Part shown: piece after piece, positions 41,248-48,930 of the stretch
Numbering within the stretch: the stretch's first letter is position 1
Layout: each line of letters opens with the position of its first letter
Assembly: GCF_947039605.1 (NCBI RefSeq)
Contig: NZ_CAMQZG010000015.1
Coordinates: 1-64,000 of the forward strand
DNA length: 64,000 nt
Reading direction: 5' to 3'
From: an uncultured Clostridium sp.
GTDB taxonomy: Bacteria; Bacillota; Clostridia; Clostridiales; Clostridiaceae
Translations under genes and position numbers: made by a program
The notes under the pieces: model-generated
What the model saw: only the letters and a program-made list of their open reading frames with translations
What the model was told of the DNA's origin: nothing
The model's database searches: none

Positions 41248-41499
41248 ATGAATGATAACTTAGCAAGAGATTATGACTATTATCAAGTCCAACCAGAGAT
41301 GCTTCCAAATGAACAAACTGTTGTTCGAAAAAAGAAACAGCTTACAAAAAATCAAATTATCGCTAGAAAGAAAGCTAGATTAAAGCGTAAAAGAAAAATG
41401 GAAGTTAGAAAAAGATTATCTTTAATTGTAATAACTTTATTTTCGATATTCGGAACTTTAAGTATTGCTTTATATGCTTTTGCACTTCAAAGAGGCTAA
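41248..41499 (+). CDS. small basic single-TM protein
   Basis: MNDNLARDYDYYQVQPEMLPNEQ...KKARLKRKRKMEVRKRLSLIVITLFSIFGTLSIALYAF; AAGGGGG RBS supports the 41248 start over 41200. Confidence 0.65.
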   Translation: MNDNLARDYDYYQVQPEMLPNEQTVVRKKKQLTKNQIIARKKARLKRKRKMEVRKRLSLIVITLFSIFGTLSIALYAFALQRG

Positions 41500-41566
41500 G
41501 AATTTGTTAATTGCATATAAAAACTTATTAAATGAACTAACAAGTTTTTATATAAAATTAACATAA

Positions 41567-41690
41567 ATAAAAGCTACCAAGAAATAAATGGTTGTATAGC
41601 AAGAGCGTGTTAATAAACCCTCCTGCATTATACAACTATTTTTTATACCCATACTTGAGTAAGAACCAAATAAATCTTAGTAGCTTTTAT
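41567..41690 (-). ncRNA. candidate structured intergenic RNA element
   Basis: 16-bp closing stem ATAAAAGCTACCAAGA/TCTTAGTAGCTTTTAT and an internal GTTGTATA..GCAGGAG / CTCTTGC..TATACAAC hairpin; the two non-Watson-Crick positions are G-U on the minus strand but A/C mismatches on the plus strand. Confidence 0.5.
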
Positions 41691-41719
41691 AATATATTTT
41701 TAAATATAGGGAAGCATTG

Positions 41720-42319
41720 TTATTTTGGCTTTTTAATAAAAAGCCCATTTATACTATTTTCTAATAATGAATATGCTACTTCTACAAAATGTGCTGTAAT
41801 ATCCATATCACTAAAAATTACCTTCGCATATTCTTTTGCACATATAAAATTTTCCCATTTTGCATCTATATAATCAAATTCTGTTAAATTTGCTCTATTA
41901 CTTAATTTCTCTGCTTTTCTTATTAACTCTTCTAAATTTGCTTTTCCTTTAATCTCTACTAATGACTCTATACTATTACGAAGTTTCTCTTTTAGCTCTA
42001 GTGCTTGAGATTTTGTGATGTTTTTAATATCTTCTATCGAGCTCGTAATCTCTATATCATTTTCTAAAAATCTCCATGTTTTTTTTGTATATAAACATTT
42101 ATTTAACTTATTAGCTTCGTTAATAATAACTATTAAATCTTTATATTCAATTTCTTTATCTATGCTAAAAAATTTTAATTTTTTACATACTCTAGTTAAT
42201 TCCTCTTGGTTATACATATTTTCAAAAAATTCTAATACTTTCCCCTTTACATCTACTATTTCTTTTAAAATCATTTCACTTGCATACATTTCACATACAT
42301 CCTTTTCTCTATATTTCAC
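41720..42319 (-). CDS. hypothetical protein with FIVAR-like C-terminal segment
   Basis: KANLEELIRKAEKLSNRANLTEFDYIDAKWENFICAKEYAKVIFSDMDITAHFVEVAYSLLENSI resembles FIVAR; start codon appears to be GTG; no signal peptide. Confidence 0.55.
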   Translation of the reverse strand: MKYREKDVCEMYASEMILKEIVDVKGKVLEFFENMYNQEELTRVCKKLKFFSIDKEIEYKDLIVIINEANKLNKCLYTKKTWRFLENDIEITSSIEDIKNITKSQALELKEKLRNSIESLVEIKGKANLEELIRKAEKLSNRANLTEFDYIDAKWENFICAKEYAKVIFSDMDITAHFVEVAYSLLENSINGLFIKKPK

Positions 42320-42364
42320 CTTATCTTAAATCTACTTTTCACACCTTTTATTTTATAAATCCTA

Positions 42365-42508
42365 CTAAGTTACCGATTCTAGTGAATATATTTCTATATC
42401 TTTTGCAAGGTCATTATTTTTTTTTCTAACTTTTTGATTAATATTATTTATACTTACTCCATTAATCGTATTTATTAAAAATATCATCAAAATAACTTTT
42501 TTTCTCAT
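42365..42508 (-). CDS. unannotated small peptide downstream of the c-di-GMP-I riboswitch
   Basis: ATG..TAG 47 aa: MRKKVILMIFLINTINGVSINNINQKVRKKNNDLAKDIEIYSLESVT; GGAGGG RBS 7 nt upstream; N-terminal hydrophobic segment. Confidence 0.65.
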   Translation of the reverse strand: MRKKVILMIFLINTINGVSINNINQKVRKKNNDLAKDIEIYSLESVT

Positions 42509-42554
42509 AATCAATTCCCTCCTGATAATTTTAAAAAATCCCTCAGAAGTACAT

Positions 42555-42589
42555 AAAAAAAGTTACTCTAAACAAAGAGTAACTTTTTT
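42555..42589 (-). terminator. riboswitch expression-platform terminator
   Basis: Minus strand AAAAAAGTTACTCT-ttgttt-AGAGTAACTTTTTTT between aptamer and small ORF. Confidence 0.85.
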
Positions 42590-42639
42590 CCAATATATAA
42601 AAATCACTTCTTATATACCTTCAAACAAAAAGTAATACA

Positions 42640-42735
42640 AATGTACTCTTTGGCAACTGGCTGACTTGGTCTTAACAACTTTAGTCCCTATAGCTTTGCG
42701 TCACTAGATTTCTCTAACTTTGCCGTATTCTATTG
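42640..42735 (-). promoter_or_regulatory. cyclic di-GMP-I (GEMM-I) riboswitch aptamer
   Basis: Minus strand GGCAAAG-ttagaGAAAtctagtg-ACGCAAAGC-tatagggactaaag...gtc-AGCCAG-TTGCC: GNRA tetraloop hairpin, ACGCAAAGC and AGCCAG landmarks all present. Confidence 0.93.
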
Positions 42736-42818
42736 AATATAATTTACCATATAAGAATTTATTTAACAATAAATATAGTTTATTGTTTACATTTTTTTAA
42801 CTTTTAATATTAAAATTT

Positions 42819-43423: not shown

Positions 43424-43909
43424 TTAGCATATTCTTGCTTCAATAAATATTGAAGTTGCTTTATATATTTTTCTACAACTAAATTTCCTTGCATATACAG
43501 TTTGGACATATGGTGCTATAAAAACCCTATTAGCTCTTATTAAAGCTTTTATATCTAACTTCTTTAAATTCTCTGGAACTATAATAAATAGACTTTTATA
43601 GACTTCATTATAAATTATATGAACTGGCTCATCTGTACTTACTCCACTATACGTTATTTTTTCATTTATTTTAACAATTATAATTAATTTTGTTCCTGTT
43701 AATTTTTGTCCTTCATTTGATATTCCTATTTCTGTTTTAATAACCTGTATATCCTCTACCTCTGGCCATATCTTTATAGAATTTACAGAATCAATATCAG
43801 GGTCTGTATTTTCTAGTTCTAAGAATTCTGCAAATTCTAATTCTTTAAAATATATTGGATTCTCTGGATATATATTTTCATTACTTATGATATTTGTTTT
43901 TAAATTCAT
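43424..43909 (-). CDS. SPOCS (DUF3794)-like protein
   Basis: IWPEVEDIQVIKTEIGISNEGQKLTGTKLIIIVKINEKITYSG resembles the SPOCS repeats of its neighbours. Confidence 0.75.
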   Translation of the reverse strand: MNLKTNIISNENIYPENPIYFKELEFAEFLELENTDPDIDSVNSIKIWPEVEDIQVIKTEIGISNEGQKLTGTKLIIIVKINEKITYSGVSTDEPVHIIYNEVYKSLFIIVPENLKKLDIKALIRANRVFIAPYVQTVYARKFSCRKIYKATSIFIEARIC

Positions 43910-43918
43910 TTCTCCCTC

Positions 43919-44395
43919 CTAACAAACACTTCCTGTAAGAACTAAACTAATACTTGAATAAATACTTCTTGGTCCATTCTCTTTAATATAAATATCTTCT
44001 ACAAGTATACTTGGTGCTATATATGACTTCTCTCTTGTTCCACTTGGTAAAACAACCCCACCACTATAAGCCGTTTCATAAAAAAAATTATTTATTAGTT
44101 GGCATTTTTGATCTGTTAAGTACTGAATTTTAACTTTTATATTACCAGATATAAATAATTTATATCCTGTAAGTCTAACCCCTTCTACAGATTTCCCTAC
44201 TGGTGTTTTAATAAGATATGAATCAATAATATTTGTTTCTATACTTACTCTAGTTATCTGAATCATATCAGGCTTATAACTAGGAACAAGACTAATTTCA
44301 TCTATACTTATCTGCTTAAATGCATTATTATTTTTTGAAATATCAATATTGTCTATACCTTCATATTCTATTAAATCTCTTATAACAGATGACAC
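43919..44395 (-). CDS. SPOCS (DUF3794)-like protein
   Basis: KQISIDEISLVPSYKPDMIQITRVSIETNI...GKSVEGVRLTGYKLFISGNIKVKIQY. Confidence 0.78.
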   Translation of the reverse strand: MSSVIRDLIEYEGIDNIDISKNNNAFKQISIDEISLVPSYKPDMIQITRVSIETNIIDSYLIKTPVGKSVEGVRLTGYKLFISGNIKVKIQYLTDQKCQLINNFFYETAYSGGVVLPSGTREKSYIAPSILVEDIYIKENGPRSIYSSISLVLTGSVC

Positions 44396-44415: not shown

Positions 44416-47400
44416 TTAGACTGATAAAATTTTAGCAACTAATAATATCGTTGTATTATTAAAAAACTCTCTCTTATTTATTCTTTTATGATATATATTT
44501 TCTATTTTACCTTCAACTTCAACCCTACTATTTATATTAAACCCTACAGGCATTATTATATAATCACTAAATAACATTTCATAACCAGCTGAATAAACAG
44601 CCTGCGAATCATTTTTTGATGTATATTCTATAGTTTCATTTATAACACCATTCACAATTAACTTGTATCCACTTAGGACCTGCCCCTCTATAGAATTAAC
44701 TATAGGTGTTTCTACTAAATGTGTACTCAATATTTCAACTCTTGCAATAACATTATCTATTTCTTCTATATCTGGCTTCTCTTTCGGAATTTCTAAATAT
44801 TCATCTTTATCAATCTGTCTAAAGTTAGATAATGCTATATCAACCGTTTCTAAATTTTTAGTTTCTATCTCACTAATATCTCTTCCATTTGACCCATCCA
44901 TTAAAATATAAGAATATTTAACATAAGTCTTTGTCCTTATATCTAATTTCGAACTGGTTTTTTTAACCTTTACCTTATATTTTATTATTTTAACATCCGC
45001 TATATTTATGTTTCCTATAATTATTCCCTTTGTTATATTAACATTATTTACAAATTCACCATCTATAGAAAAACTTCTATTTACAAGTTCTACCCCCTCA
45101 AATAATTCATCTATAAAAAGAACATTTAAAGTATCCCTATCACCTGTATTTATAATTGTTACTTCATATGCTATTTCATCTCCAAGCCTTACAAAATCTT
45201 TATCTGATTTTTTATAAATTTCAACCTCTATTTTGTTTATATAAATTCTACACTCCTCAGTTTCAACATGATTATTATAATACTCCTGATTTTGTATTTT
45301 ATAATTATATATTGCAAATGCCTTTATTAATGCATATCCATTTACCTCTGGCTTTTTAATAACCTTAAACTCACACTTTATTTCAATTGATTCTCCAACC
45401 TCTATTTTATCTATATTTATACCTGAAATTATACTCTCATCTACCTTTGGCTTACTATTTATACTTACACTCCCCTCAACAAACTCTAATTCTGCTGAAA
45501 GAATATCCGTTACAACAATTTCCTCTAAATGCATATCACCAGTGTTTGAAAGTACAATTCTAAGGTCAACTACTTCTCCTATAATTACACACTCTTTACT
45601 TATATATTTCTTAATGCAAAGACTAGGATTATAAAGCTCTAATATATTTTCAATTTTTGTACTTCCACTTATTTTACTGCTATTAACCTCATCTATTTGT
45701 ATTTGTGCATCTATCTCAATATGTGTTTTCTTTCTTGTATATATAACATCTGTTGCCTTTAAATTAAACTTTAATGTTTTTTCACTATGGCCACAAATAT
45801 CACGAAAGTTTATCCCCGCCTTTAGTTCCCCTAAATATTCCCCTCCATCTAAAACCGCTGATATTACATCAAATTCTTTTTCAAAAGGATATACTACAAC
45901 TACATTATTTAAAGTAATCTCGCCTTTATTAATTAGAATAATTTCCACCTCAAATATTTCACCAACGATTACTTTTTCCTTTGAAAAGTTCATTTCCACC
46001 TTTAAATCATATTTTAAAATTTCAAGTGAAACTTCTTCTTTTTCTAGCTCAACACTAAATATTTTTCCACAAACCATATAATCATATGATGAGGTTGTAA
46101 TAAGTTTAACCTCTTTATTAACTGATTTAATTTCCGAACTTATCAATATATCAAAAGAAATATCTACCATCTGTCCTGCTGCTAAAACTGCAAAATCTAT
46201 TCCCTTTAAAATAGATAAATAAGATTTTTCTCCATCAATTATTAAATTTTCCTCATAAATAATTCCCTCTTCTAAATACTCTTTTAATGAAAAATCTCTT
46301 GCATTAGTATCTCCTATATTTTTTACTAAAATATTACATCTTACTAAATCGCCAACTATTGCTCTATCTTTATTAAGTGATTTTTCTATTTGTATTTTAG
46401 ATACAATATTTGCAACACTCAACGTATTAAATGTAAAACTTCTAGTAATTTTCTTATAATCTACTAAATACTCATATTCTAGAGTTGGAGTAAAATCTAA
46501 TATATTTCTATCAGAGCTTATAACCCTAAGACTGTATTTTATCTCAATAATCTGCTTTATCTTAATACAATCTAGTACTACTCCATAATTTCCTGTATCA
46601 AAATAAAACTCTTCACCATCCACAATAATACTATCACTATTAAACATTGTTCCCTGAACTACTAAATCTTTCAATAACAATTTCTCTATATTAACATTCC
46701 CTGTATTTTCAAATCTCACAGTAAAATTTATAATATCGCCAACTGTTGTAACAGATTTATCTGATATAAATAAAACATCTTCATTTGATATATTTCCATA
46801 AATAATATTAGTTCTAACCATATTACTTTCAAATACTATTATTTCTCCCTCTTCTGACTTATTTGTTTTAAACTCACCTCTAGCACTTGCCCTATTTACA
46901 ACTTCATCTTTTTGTTCTATCACCTTGTTTAAATAAACTTTAAATTCTATCTCTACACTTTCATCAATATCTATTTTTCCAACCTCAATAAAAGTTAAAC
47001 TTTTGCATTCATGACCTACCCTATTTATTTTCAAACTTCCTTTTTCAAATAAAAGTGCTCCATCAATTAAATCTTTTATAATAACATTCTCAGCTATAAT
47101 ATTTCCTATATTTTTTACATATATTTTATAACCTAAAGACCCATCAAAAGAAATACTTTCCTTATCACAACTTTTTTCTATATATAATTTAGGATTTAAT
47201 ATATCTAAATTTATAGTTTCTACTTTATACCCAGCGGTTCTATTAGAAATTAAAACTTCAAAATCATCAGCTCCTACCGCTGCAATATATGGCTCATAAG
47301 ACCAAATACCTGTATCTCTATTTATCTGTGCAACTCCTTTTCTAGCACCATTTTTTATACTATAATTAAACTCTCCCTCAATATAATTATTAATTCTTTC

Positions 47401-48930
47401 ATTTATAGTCTTATTATTTAGTAGCTCATATATACTTTCTCTCTCATCATCTCTAAAACTTGCTATCGAAACTTCTTCAATTCCTTCCCTAACAATAATT
47501 TCAACCTTTATTTTTATATCTTTACTATTTTCTTTAAAAGAAACTACAAAATAATCATTTCCTTTAAAATTACAGTTAGGAATATATGCCCAATTCCCAT
47601 TTGTTATATTTATATTTAATGATCCATAGTCAACATTTTCTAAAATTTCAAATTCTGTAATTTCAGTCCCTTTTTTATTTAATCGCCCTCTTCCTATATC
47701 ATTTTCATCAATATATTCTTTTTTTATTATCTGATTAATTTGAATATCACCTTCATAGTAATCAATACTACACTCTTCTATATCAAAACTTTCTATCCTA
47801 CTATTATTTTTTTCTTGTACTCCTATAAACTTTGAATTTTCTTGTTTTTCTGTACTATTCTCCATATTTTTTTTATTTAAATACCGTCCAAATTCTTCTT
47901 TTACTATCCCTCTATCTCCAAGTCTTGAAGCTCTAGCCCCATTTAAACTTATTATTATTTTATAAATATTCCCCGTTACATTATCAATTGCATATATGTA
48001 TCCGAGCTGATCAGAAAACATTATACTTACCTCACATCTATCTATACCACCAGTTAATATTAAAGTTGTAACCTCTCCACTATTAACATCAATCCTTTTA
48101 AGTTCATTTGTATTTTTTCCTATACCATAAATATTATTATCAACAATATTATGTGTGAATGCATCTAAATTAATTTTCATATTTAACTTTATAAAATCAT
48201 TTTTCAACTTACAAAACTCGCTATCATATGGATTCAATGAAAGTACAAATATTTTATCATCATTCTTATTCATAAAATACAATTCACCAGCAACACTTAT
48301 ATTACTTATAATTTTTTCTAAATTATACTTTGAAAGGCCATCTATATTAGCTATCTTTAATATTTCATTGTTTTCAGTTAATCTAAATACCTCATTATTT
48401 TTATTACCTGAAATAAAATAATAATTTTCATCCATTTTGTTATAATTAACATTTGAAAAATCCATATTTATATTCATGTTAAATTCAAACATTATTTCTC
48501 CATTAAATGTATCTACTAAAAAAACATCTCCTATCGGTGAAATTACAACTCTTTCATTATTTTTAACTACAAAAAAAGAATTCATATTATCATGTGAGAA
48601 ATTTATATTTTCTATGAATTTTGCAGTTAGAATATCCTCTTTTGTAACTTCTATCTTATAAGATTTATAATTTGTAGAATTTCTAAACTTTTTTATATTC
48701 CCAAATTTATTTTTTCCTTTAATATCTTCAATTACCTTATATACTCCCACTTCCTTAATATTATCAAAAAAATAAAAACCATCTTTATCCGTTCTTCCTC
48801 TTAGAACTTCCCCTCTTACACCTATAAGTACTATATCAACACCATCTATTCCTTTATACTCGCTTGAACTACTATCAAATACTCTCCCTGATATTTTTAT
48901 TCCCACATATACCACTCCTAACATCACCAT
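44416..48930 (-). CDS. large multidomain DUF11-repeat protein with Cna-B-like N-terminus and C-terminal SPOCS domain
   Basis: 1504 aa; 'ISGRVFDSSSSEYKGIDGVDIVLIG' Cna-B-like start, at least six DUF11-type repeats ('VGDxIxxxVxxxNTGDxxxxxxxxxD'), C-terminal 'IPKEKPDIEEIDNV..EGQVLSGYKLIVNGVINETIEYTS'. Confidence 0.85.
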   Translation of the reverse strand: MVMLGVVYVGIKISGRVFDSSSSEYKGIDGVDIVLIGVRGEVLRGRTDKDGFYFFDNIKEVGVYKVIEDIKGKNKFGNIKKFRNSTNYKSYKIEVTKEDILTAKFIENINFSHDNMNSFFVVKNNERVVISPIGDVFLVDTFNGEIMFEFNMNINMDFSNVNYNKMDENYYFISGNKNNEVFRLTENNEILKIANIDGLSKYNLEKIISNISVAGELYFMNKNDDKIFVLSLNPYDSEFCKLKNDFIKLNMKINLDAFTHNIVDNNIYGIGKNTNELKRIDVNSGEVTTLILTGGIDRCEVSIMFSDQLGYIYAIDNVTGNIYKIIISLNGARASRLGDRGIVKEEFGRYLNKKNMENSTEKQENSKFIGVQEKNNSRIESFDIEECSIDYYEGDIQINQIIKKEYIDENDIGRGRLNKKGTEITEFEILENVDYGSLNINITNGNWAYIPNCNFKGNDYFVVSFKENSKDIKIKVEIIVREGIEEVSIASFRDDERESIYELLNNKTINERINNYIEGEFNYSIKNGARKGVAQINRDTGIWSYEPYIAAVGADDFEVLISNRTAGYKVETINLDILNPKLYIEKSCDKESISFDGSLGYKIYVKNIGNIIAENVIIKDLIDGALLFEKGSLKINRVGHECKSLTFIEVGKIDIDESVEIEFKVYLNKVIEQKDEVVNRASARGEFKTNKSEEGEIIVFESNMVRTNIIYGNISNEDVLFISDKSVTTVGDIINFTVRFENTGNVNIEKLLLKDLVVQGTMFNSDSIIVDGEEFYFDTGNYGVVLDCIKIKQIIEIKYSLRVISSDRNILDFTPTLEYEYLVDYKKITRSFTFNTLSVANIVSKIQIEKSLNKDRAIVGDLVRCNILVKNIGDTNARDFSLKEYLEEGIIYEENLIIDGEKSYLSILKGIDFAVLAAGQMVDISFDILISSEIKSVNKEVKLITTSSYDYMVCGKIFSVELEKEEVSLEILKYDLKVEMNFSKEKVIVGEIFEVEIILINKGEITLNNVVVVYPFEKEFDVISAVLDGGEYLGELKAGINFRDICGHSEKTLKFNLKATDVIYTRKKTHIEIDAQIQIDEVNSSKISGSTKIENILELYNPSLCIKKYISKECVIIGEVVDLRIVLSNTGDMHLEEIVVTDILSAELEFVEGSVSINSKPKVDESIISGINIDKIEVGESIEIKCEFKVIKKPEVNGYALIKAFAIYNYKIQNQEYYNNHVETEECRIYINKIEVEIYKKSDKDFVRLGDEIAYEVTIINTGDRDTLNVLFIDELFEGVELVNRSFSIDGEFVNNVNITKGIIIGNINIADVKIIKYKVKVKKTSSKLDIRTKTYVKYSYILMDGSNGRDISEIETKNLETVDIALSNFRQIDKDEYLEIPKEKPDIEEIDNVIARVEILSTHLVETPIVNSIEGQVLSGYKLIVNGVINETIEYTSKNDSQAVYSAGYEMLFSDYIIMPVGFNINSRVEVEGKIENIYHKRINKREFFNNTTILLVAKILSV

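Follow-up and report, generated by a model that had tools for sequence, protein, structure and literature searches.

The window, by which we mean the whole 64 kb stretch of DNA analysed here, carries on its minus strand a c-di-GMP-I riboswitch followed by two short open reading frames (Table 1). The aptamer matches RF01051 (c-di-GMP-I, GEMM-I) with a score of 72.2 bits (E 3.3e-12, cmscan) against a gathering cut-off of 35 bits, and the match covers all 87 positions of the model (1-87). At gathering thresholds this is the sole Rfam match across the whole window; likewise, a search of 41400-42800 for further Rfam families returned none besides c-di-GMP-I. Downstream of the aptamer come a terminator hairpin, a Shine-Dalgarno sequence, and an ATG at 42508 that opens a 47-aa ORF; a 189-aa ORF follows in the same frame, 75 bases further on. 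The riboswitch, the hairpin with its ensuing GGAGGG and ATG, and the 47-aa ORF all lie where the first-pass annotation had placed them.

Table 1 Features of the riboswitch locus.
Feature	Position	Strand	Basis
c-di-GMP-I (GEMM-I) aptamer	42649..42734	-	RF01051, 72.2 bits, full model
Antiterminator 5' strand CAAAGAGTA, immediately 3' of P1	42644..42652	-	exactly complementary to the terminator 5' arm over nine bases
Intrinsic terminator	42555..42589	-	stem 42589-42576 / 42569-42556, then T run
Possible Shine-Dalgarno-masking stem CUUCUGA / UCAGGAG	42519..42549	-	folds of related clostridial leaders
Shine-Dalgarno AGGAGGG	42517..42523	-	sequence; same place in M60 leaders
47-aa ORF at the M60 start-codon position; probable N-terminal remnant	42365..42508	-	leader alignment, coding-like composition
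Spacer between the 47-aa and 189-aa ORFs, with several in-frame stops	42290..42364	-	sequence
189-aa FIVAR-repeat ORF without signal peptide; probable C-terminal remnant	41720..42289	-	FIVAR-tail matches

Two additional c-di-GMP-I copies are found in the same genome (L001 and L045), one upstream of a 261-aa secreted protein that is unclassified, the other upstream of a TPR-GGDEF protein; the latter copy could possibly provide feedback on c-di-GMP synthesis.

The two arms of the terminator are complementary at 14/14 positions and are followed by a T run; the stem, TACTCTTT..AGAGTA, is also present in relatives. In minimum free energy folds of a leader ending before the terminator 3' arm, CAAAGAGUA (42652-42644) pairs with UACUCUUUG (42581-42573) to form an antiterminator, but once the 3' arm is included the terminator fold is favoured by about 7 kcal/mol. 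The two structures are mutually exclusive, with the antiterminator in the nascent leader and the terminator in the full leader. Given that the antiterminator-constrained fold reaches into the 3' strand of P1, a P1 stabilised by ligand should favour termination. The computed complementarity and folding, together with a ligand effect that we infer, argue for an OFF-type architecture: at low c-di-GMP, CAAAGAGUA on the 3' side of the aptamer would pair with the terminator 5' arm and transcription would go on; with c-di-GMP bound, P1 would keep its 3' strand, the terminator would form, and transcription would end. The functional class I c-di-GMP switches of Clostridioides difficile have an OFF architecture (PMC6200980, PMC6366702), and they resemble the window riboswitch in the full-length aptamer, the terminator/antiterminator platform, and the predicted OFF design. 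What sets the window apart from RF01051 systems is its downstream coding unit, a remnant-like pair of short ORFs.

A second element may lie after the terminator, where AGGAGG is spaced 9 bases from the ATG of the 47-aa ORF. Related leaders contain CUUCUGA and UCAGGAG, and the stem formed by these strands appears in their folds with few weak cases; 85.7% of cells are paired across these leaders, and covariation for the stem is nowhere above that of shuffles. The related leaders also contain AAUGUAC(U), the complement of the post-aptamer GAGUACAUU strand; the strand upstream of the post-terminator stem is AAAGAGUACAUU. The masking stem and the AAUGUAC(U) pairing suggest a second, translational layer of control after the terminator, one that is without covariation support. 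The Bc1 c-di-GMP-I riboswitch of Bacillus thuringiensis likewise has a long expression platform that combines a terminator with a stem holding the ribosome-binding site (PMC11218506), the stem in the window being a predicted one; Bc1 differs, however, in having two terminators and another downstream gene, mcpE (PMC11218506).

The composition of the 47-aa ORF looks coding. Its per-codon score of 0.40 bits compares with a median of 0.46 for real genes (38th percentile). None of 180 stop-free stretches taken off frame scores as high; among nucleotide shuffles 0.6% do so, and among intergenic windows 1.2%. Just 0.4% of shuffles of the ORF are stop-free. These results set it apart from a chance ORF.

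What the leader controls in other bacteria became visible when about 85,000 GTDB species genomes were scanned for exact occurrences of the aptamer/platform junction, AGCCAGTTGCCAAAGAGTA. The scan returned 35 stretches with 36 instances, and 20 of these 36 are directly upstream of secreted M60-type proteins of 1,750-2,670 residues, whose domains include F5/8C, Peptidase M60 (HExxH), NPCBM, and FIVAR. The HExxH motif is present in 12/12 of the proteins examined in full, and Pfam confirms M60, F5/8C, and NPCBM in three proteins. Such pairs of leader and M60-type gene are spread over about 20 Clostridium, Romboutsia, and related genomes. The remaining instances include leaders of flagellar rod genes, of other secreted proteins, and of one M26-type metallopeptidase. 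Among the loci L046-L080 (e.g. L046, L054, L057, L066, L069) are c-di-GMP-I leaders with a conserved platform directly before giant secreted M60-type proteases. In G002 (L042:509-3778) the same leader stands upstream of the M26-type (IgA1-protease-like) metallopeptidase, so the switch has been paired with different secreted zinc peptidases. A class I riboswitch of C. difficile precedes zmpI, whose product, a secreted zinc metalloprotease, cleaves proteins of the cell surface (PMC6200980, PMC4591827). Like the leaders of the window's relatives, it is a class I switch of the OFF type that precedes a gene for a secreted metalloprotease; the relatives' protein, however, is a large M60-type multidomain protein rather than ZmpI, and at the window it is probably lost.

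The window leader matches the M60-gene leaders all the way from aptamer to start codon. In Clostridium mediterraneense (G001), a member of the same genus, the aptamer, the AAAGAGTAC..TACTTTTTG stretch, the terminator, and TGTGCTTCTGAGGG..ATCAGGGGGG..ATG are recognisable counterparts of the window sequence: the two leaders align from aptamer to Shine-Dalgarno, with blastn giving 83% over 112 nt (E 1e-26) and, between terminator and Shine-Dalgarno, 77% over 57 nt (E 6e-6). The ATG of this leader is the start of a roughly 2,000-residue protein with F5/8C, Peptidase M60, NPCBM, Ig-like, and FIVAR domains. The post-terminator block ATGTACTTCTGAGGG..ATCAGGAGG..ATG and the position of the start are common to the window and about 15-16 M60 leaders, and in the leader alignment the 47-aa ORF begins at the exact position of the M60 start codon.

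Beyond that codon the likeness fades. Against a profile of M60 N-termini the 47-aa ORF scores 5.9 bits, the same as the signal peptide of the window's chitinase and no higher than unrelated signal peptides reach, and a codon-shuffle test at the DNA level was negative as well. Since the ORF is no better a match than other signal peptides or codon shuffles, any homology is invisible past the start codon: the leader alignment shows the 47-aa ORF to be identical to the M60 start in position, and identity in sequence is without support. The secreted-like hydrophobic N-terminus described in the first-pass annotation is indeed signal-peptide-like, but only generically so. Seven genomes of the genus yielded no credible ortholog of the 47-aa ORF, and the related leaders open M60 genes instead. 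The check proposed in the first-pass annotation, that the ORF be conserved in riboswitch-bearing relatives, came out negative.

The 189-aa ORF, which has AAAAGGA about 9 bases upstream of its ATG at 42289, resembles the far end of such proteins. In tblastn searches of 208 family genomes its best matches (down to 1e-7) are the FIVAR tails of surface proteins of 1,300-2,400 residues, with alignment z-scores of 12-15; its diverged repeats give no match to the Pfam FIVAR model. Of the M60 proteins preceded by the riboswitch, L081 gives the best alignment, over residues 2242-2377 of its 2398, near the C-terminus; the final 77 residues of the ORF are also similar to the terminal repeats of a Romboutsia M60 protein. 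Weak NCBIfam matches are to a lacto-N-biosidase model (tail) and part of a ZmpB model. Several non-M60 FIVAR tails score equally well; since many surface proteins carry FIVAR repeats, the tail need not derive from an M60 gene. No ortholog of the ORF was found in the 208 family genomes, and a search for related loci among genome contigs (genome_contigs) returned nothing; a match in G006 falls inside an aminotransferase-like gene and was taken as chance. The Peptidase M60/FIVAR surface proteins of Clostridium (e.g. L040 of C. mediterraneense, L081) share with the window the leader, the start position, and a FIVAR-type tail, but the window locus is without their F5/8C, M60, and NPCBM domains. We found no M60 domain at the locus or elsewhere in the window's genome (97.6% complete, 99 contigs), in which the M60 protein finds Ig-like matches only.

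Homologs of the DUF2691 gene that adjoins the locus occur in two genomes of the genus, where no riboswitch/ORF locus lies beside them. Between convergent genes, 41566-41700 forms a very stable imperfect hairpin (-50 kcal/mol, z -8.9), pieces of which, 26-56 bases long, recur at several other sites in the genome; perhaps it is a small repeat element. On the other side, two short neighbouring ORFs at 43424-44395 give weak SPOCS (SipL-like) matches under the Pfam cut-off and adjoin a 1504-aa repeat-rich protein (44416-48930).

We consider it probable that the locus is a retained c-di-GMP-I OFF switch standing before the remnant of a gene for a large secreted M60-type metallopeptidase that lost its middle. 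The loss of the middle is suggested by the leader homology, the FIVAR tail, and the lack of M60 in the genome. The leader transcript of the relatives encodes a surface protease of roughly 2,000 residues (leader and gene stand together in 20 cases); at the window only the start (47 codons) and the FIVAR tail (189 codons) would be left, with several stops between them, and the catalytic and carbohydrate-binding middle would be gone. Contrary to this reading, both ORFs are coding-like and stop-free and the 75-nt spacer is stop-rich, a pattern that is odd under uniform decay. Together with the uncertain origin of the 47 codons, this leaves room for a repurposed mini-operon, in which the OFF switch would govern a genuine peptide of 47 aa, exported or membrane-bound, along with the 189-aa FIVAR protein, the pair being either adapted from the old gene or new. 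The coding-like composition, the strong Shine-Dalgarno of the first ORF, the AAAAGGA of the second, and the intergenic look of the spacer all fit such an operon, but the M60 gene is the usual partner of the leader, the genomes searched gave no ortholog of either ORF, and the 189-aa protein is without a signal peptide although FIVAR repeats belong to surface proteins; we find it doubtful. A variant that we regard as unlikely would have the OFF switch outlive the protease gene and now run two products of the old gene's two ends, the 47-aa peptide being exported and the FIVAR protein staying in the cytosol.

The assembly itself might mislead, since it is in 99 contigs and the related gene contains F5/8C and NPCBM repeats: an intact M60 gene could have had its repeated domains collapsed. 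The stops in the spacer and the missing M60 domain in a nearly complete genome are unlike a simple repeat collapse, which makes this explanation improbable. We give very little credence to the 47-aa ORF being a leader peptide whose translation affects the 189-aa gene through translational coupling or attenuation. The ORFs do lie close together in one frame, presumably on one transcript, but the first has no regulatory codon run, no terminator was found between the two, and there is no counterpart in related leaders, whose start codon opens the structural gene.

On the favoured reading of a retained switch and a remnant gene, the view that second-messenger signalling gates a small peptide needs correcting. 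The riboswitch is real and is positioned over the 47-aa ORF, but evolved gating of a small exported peptide is not supported: the same leader opens a giant M60-type protease in about 20 other genomes, and the proposed dedicated exported peptide sits on the M60 start codon with an in-frame FIVAR tail fragment downstream. The locus would then be a regulator that has outlived its target. The literature that we searched contained no paper joining a c-di-GMP riboswitch, Clostridium, and peptidase M60, nor the link between this widespread c-di-GMP-I leader and giant secreted M60-type proteases. If that link is true, these bacteria would secrete more of their M60-type proteases when c-di-GMP is low.
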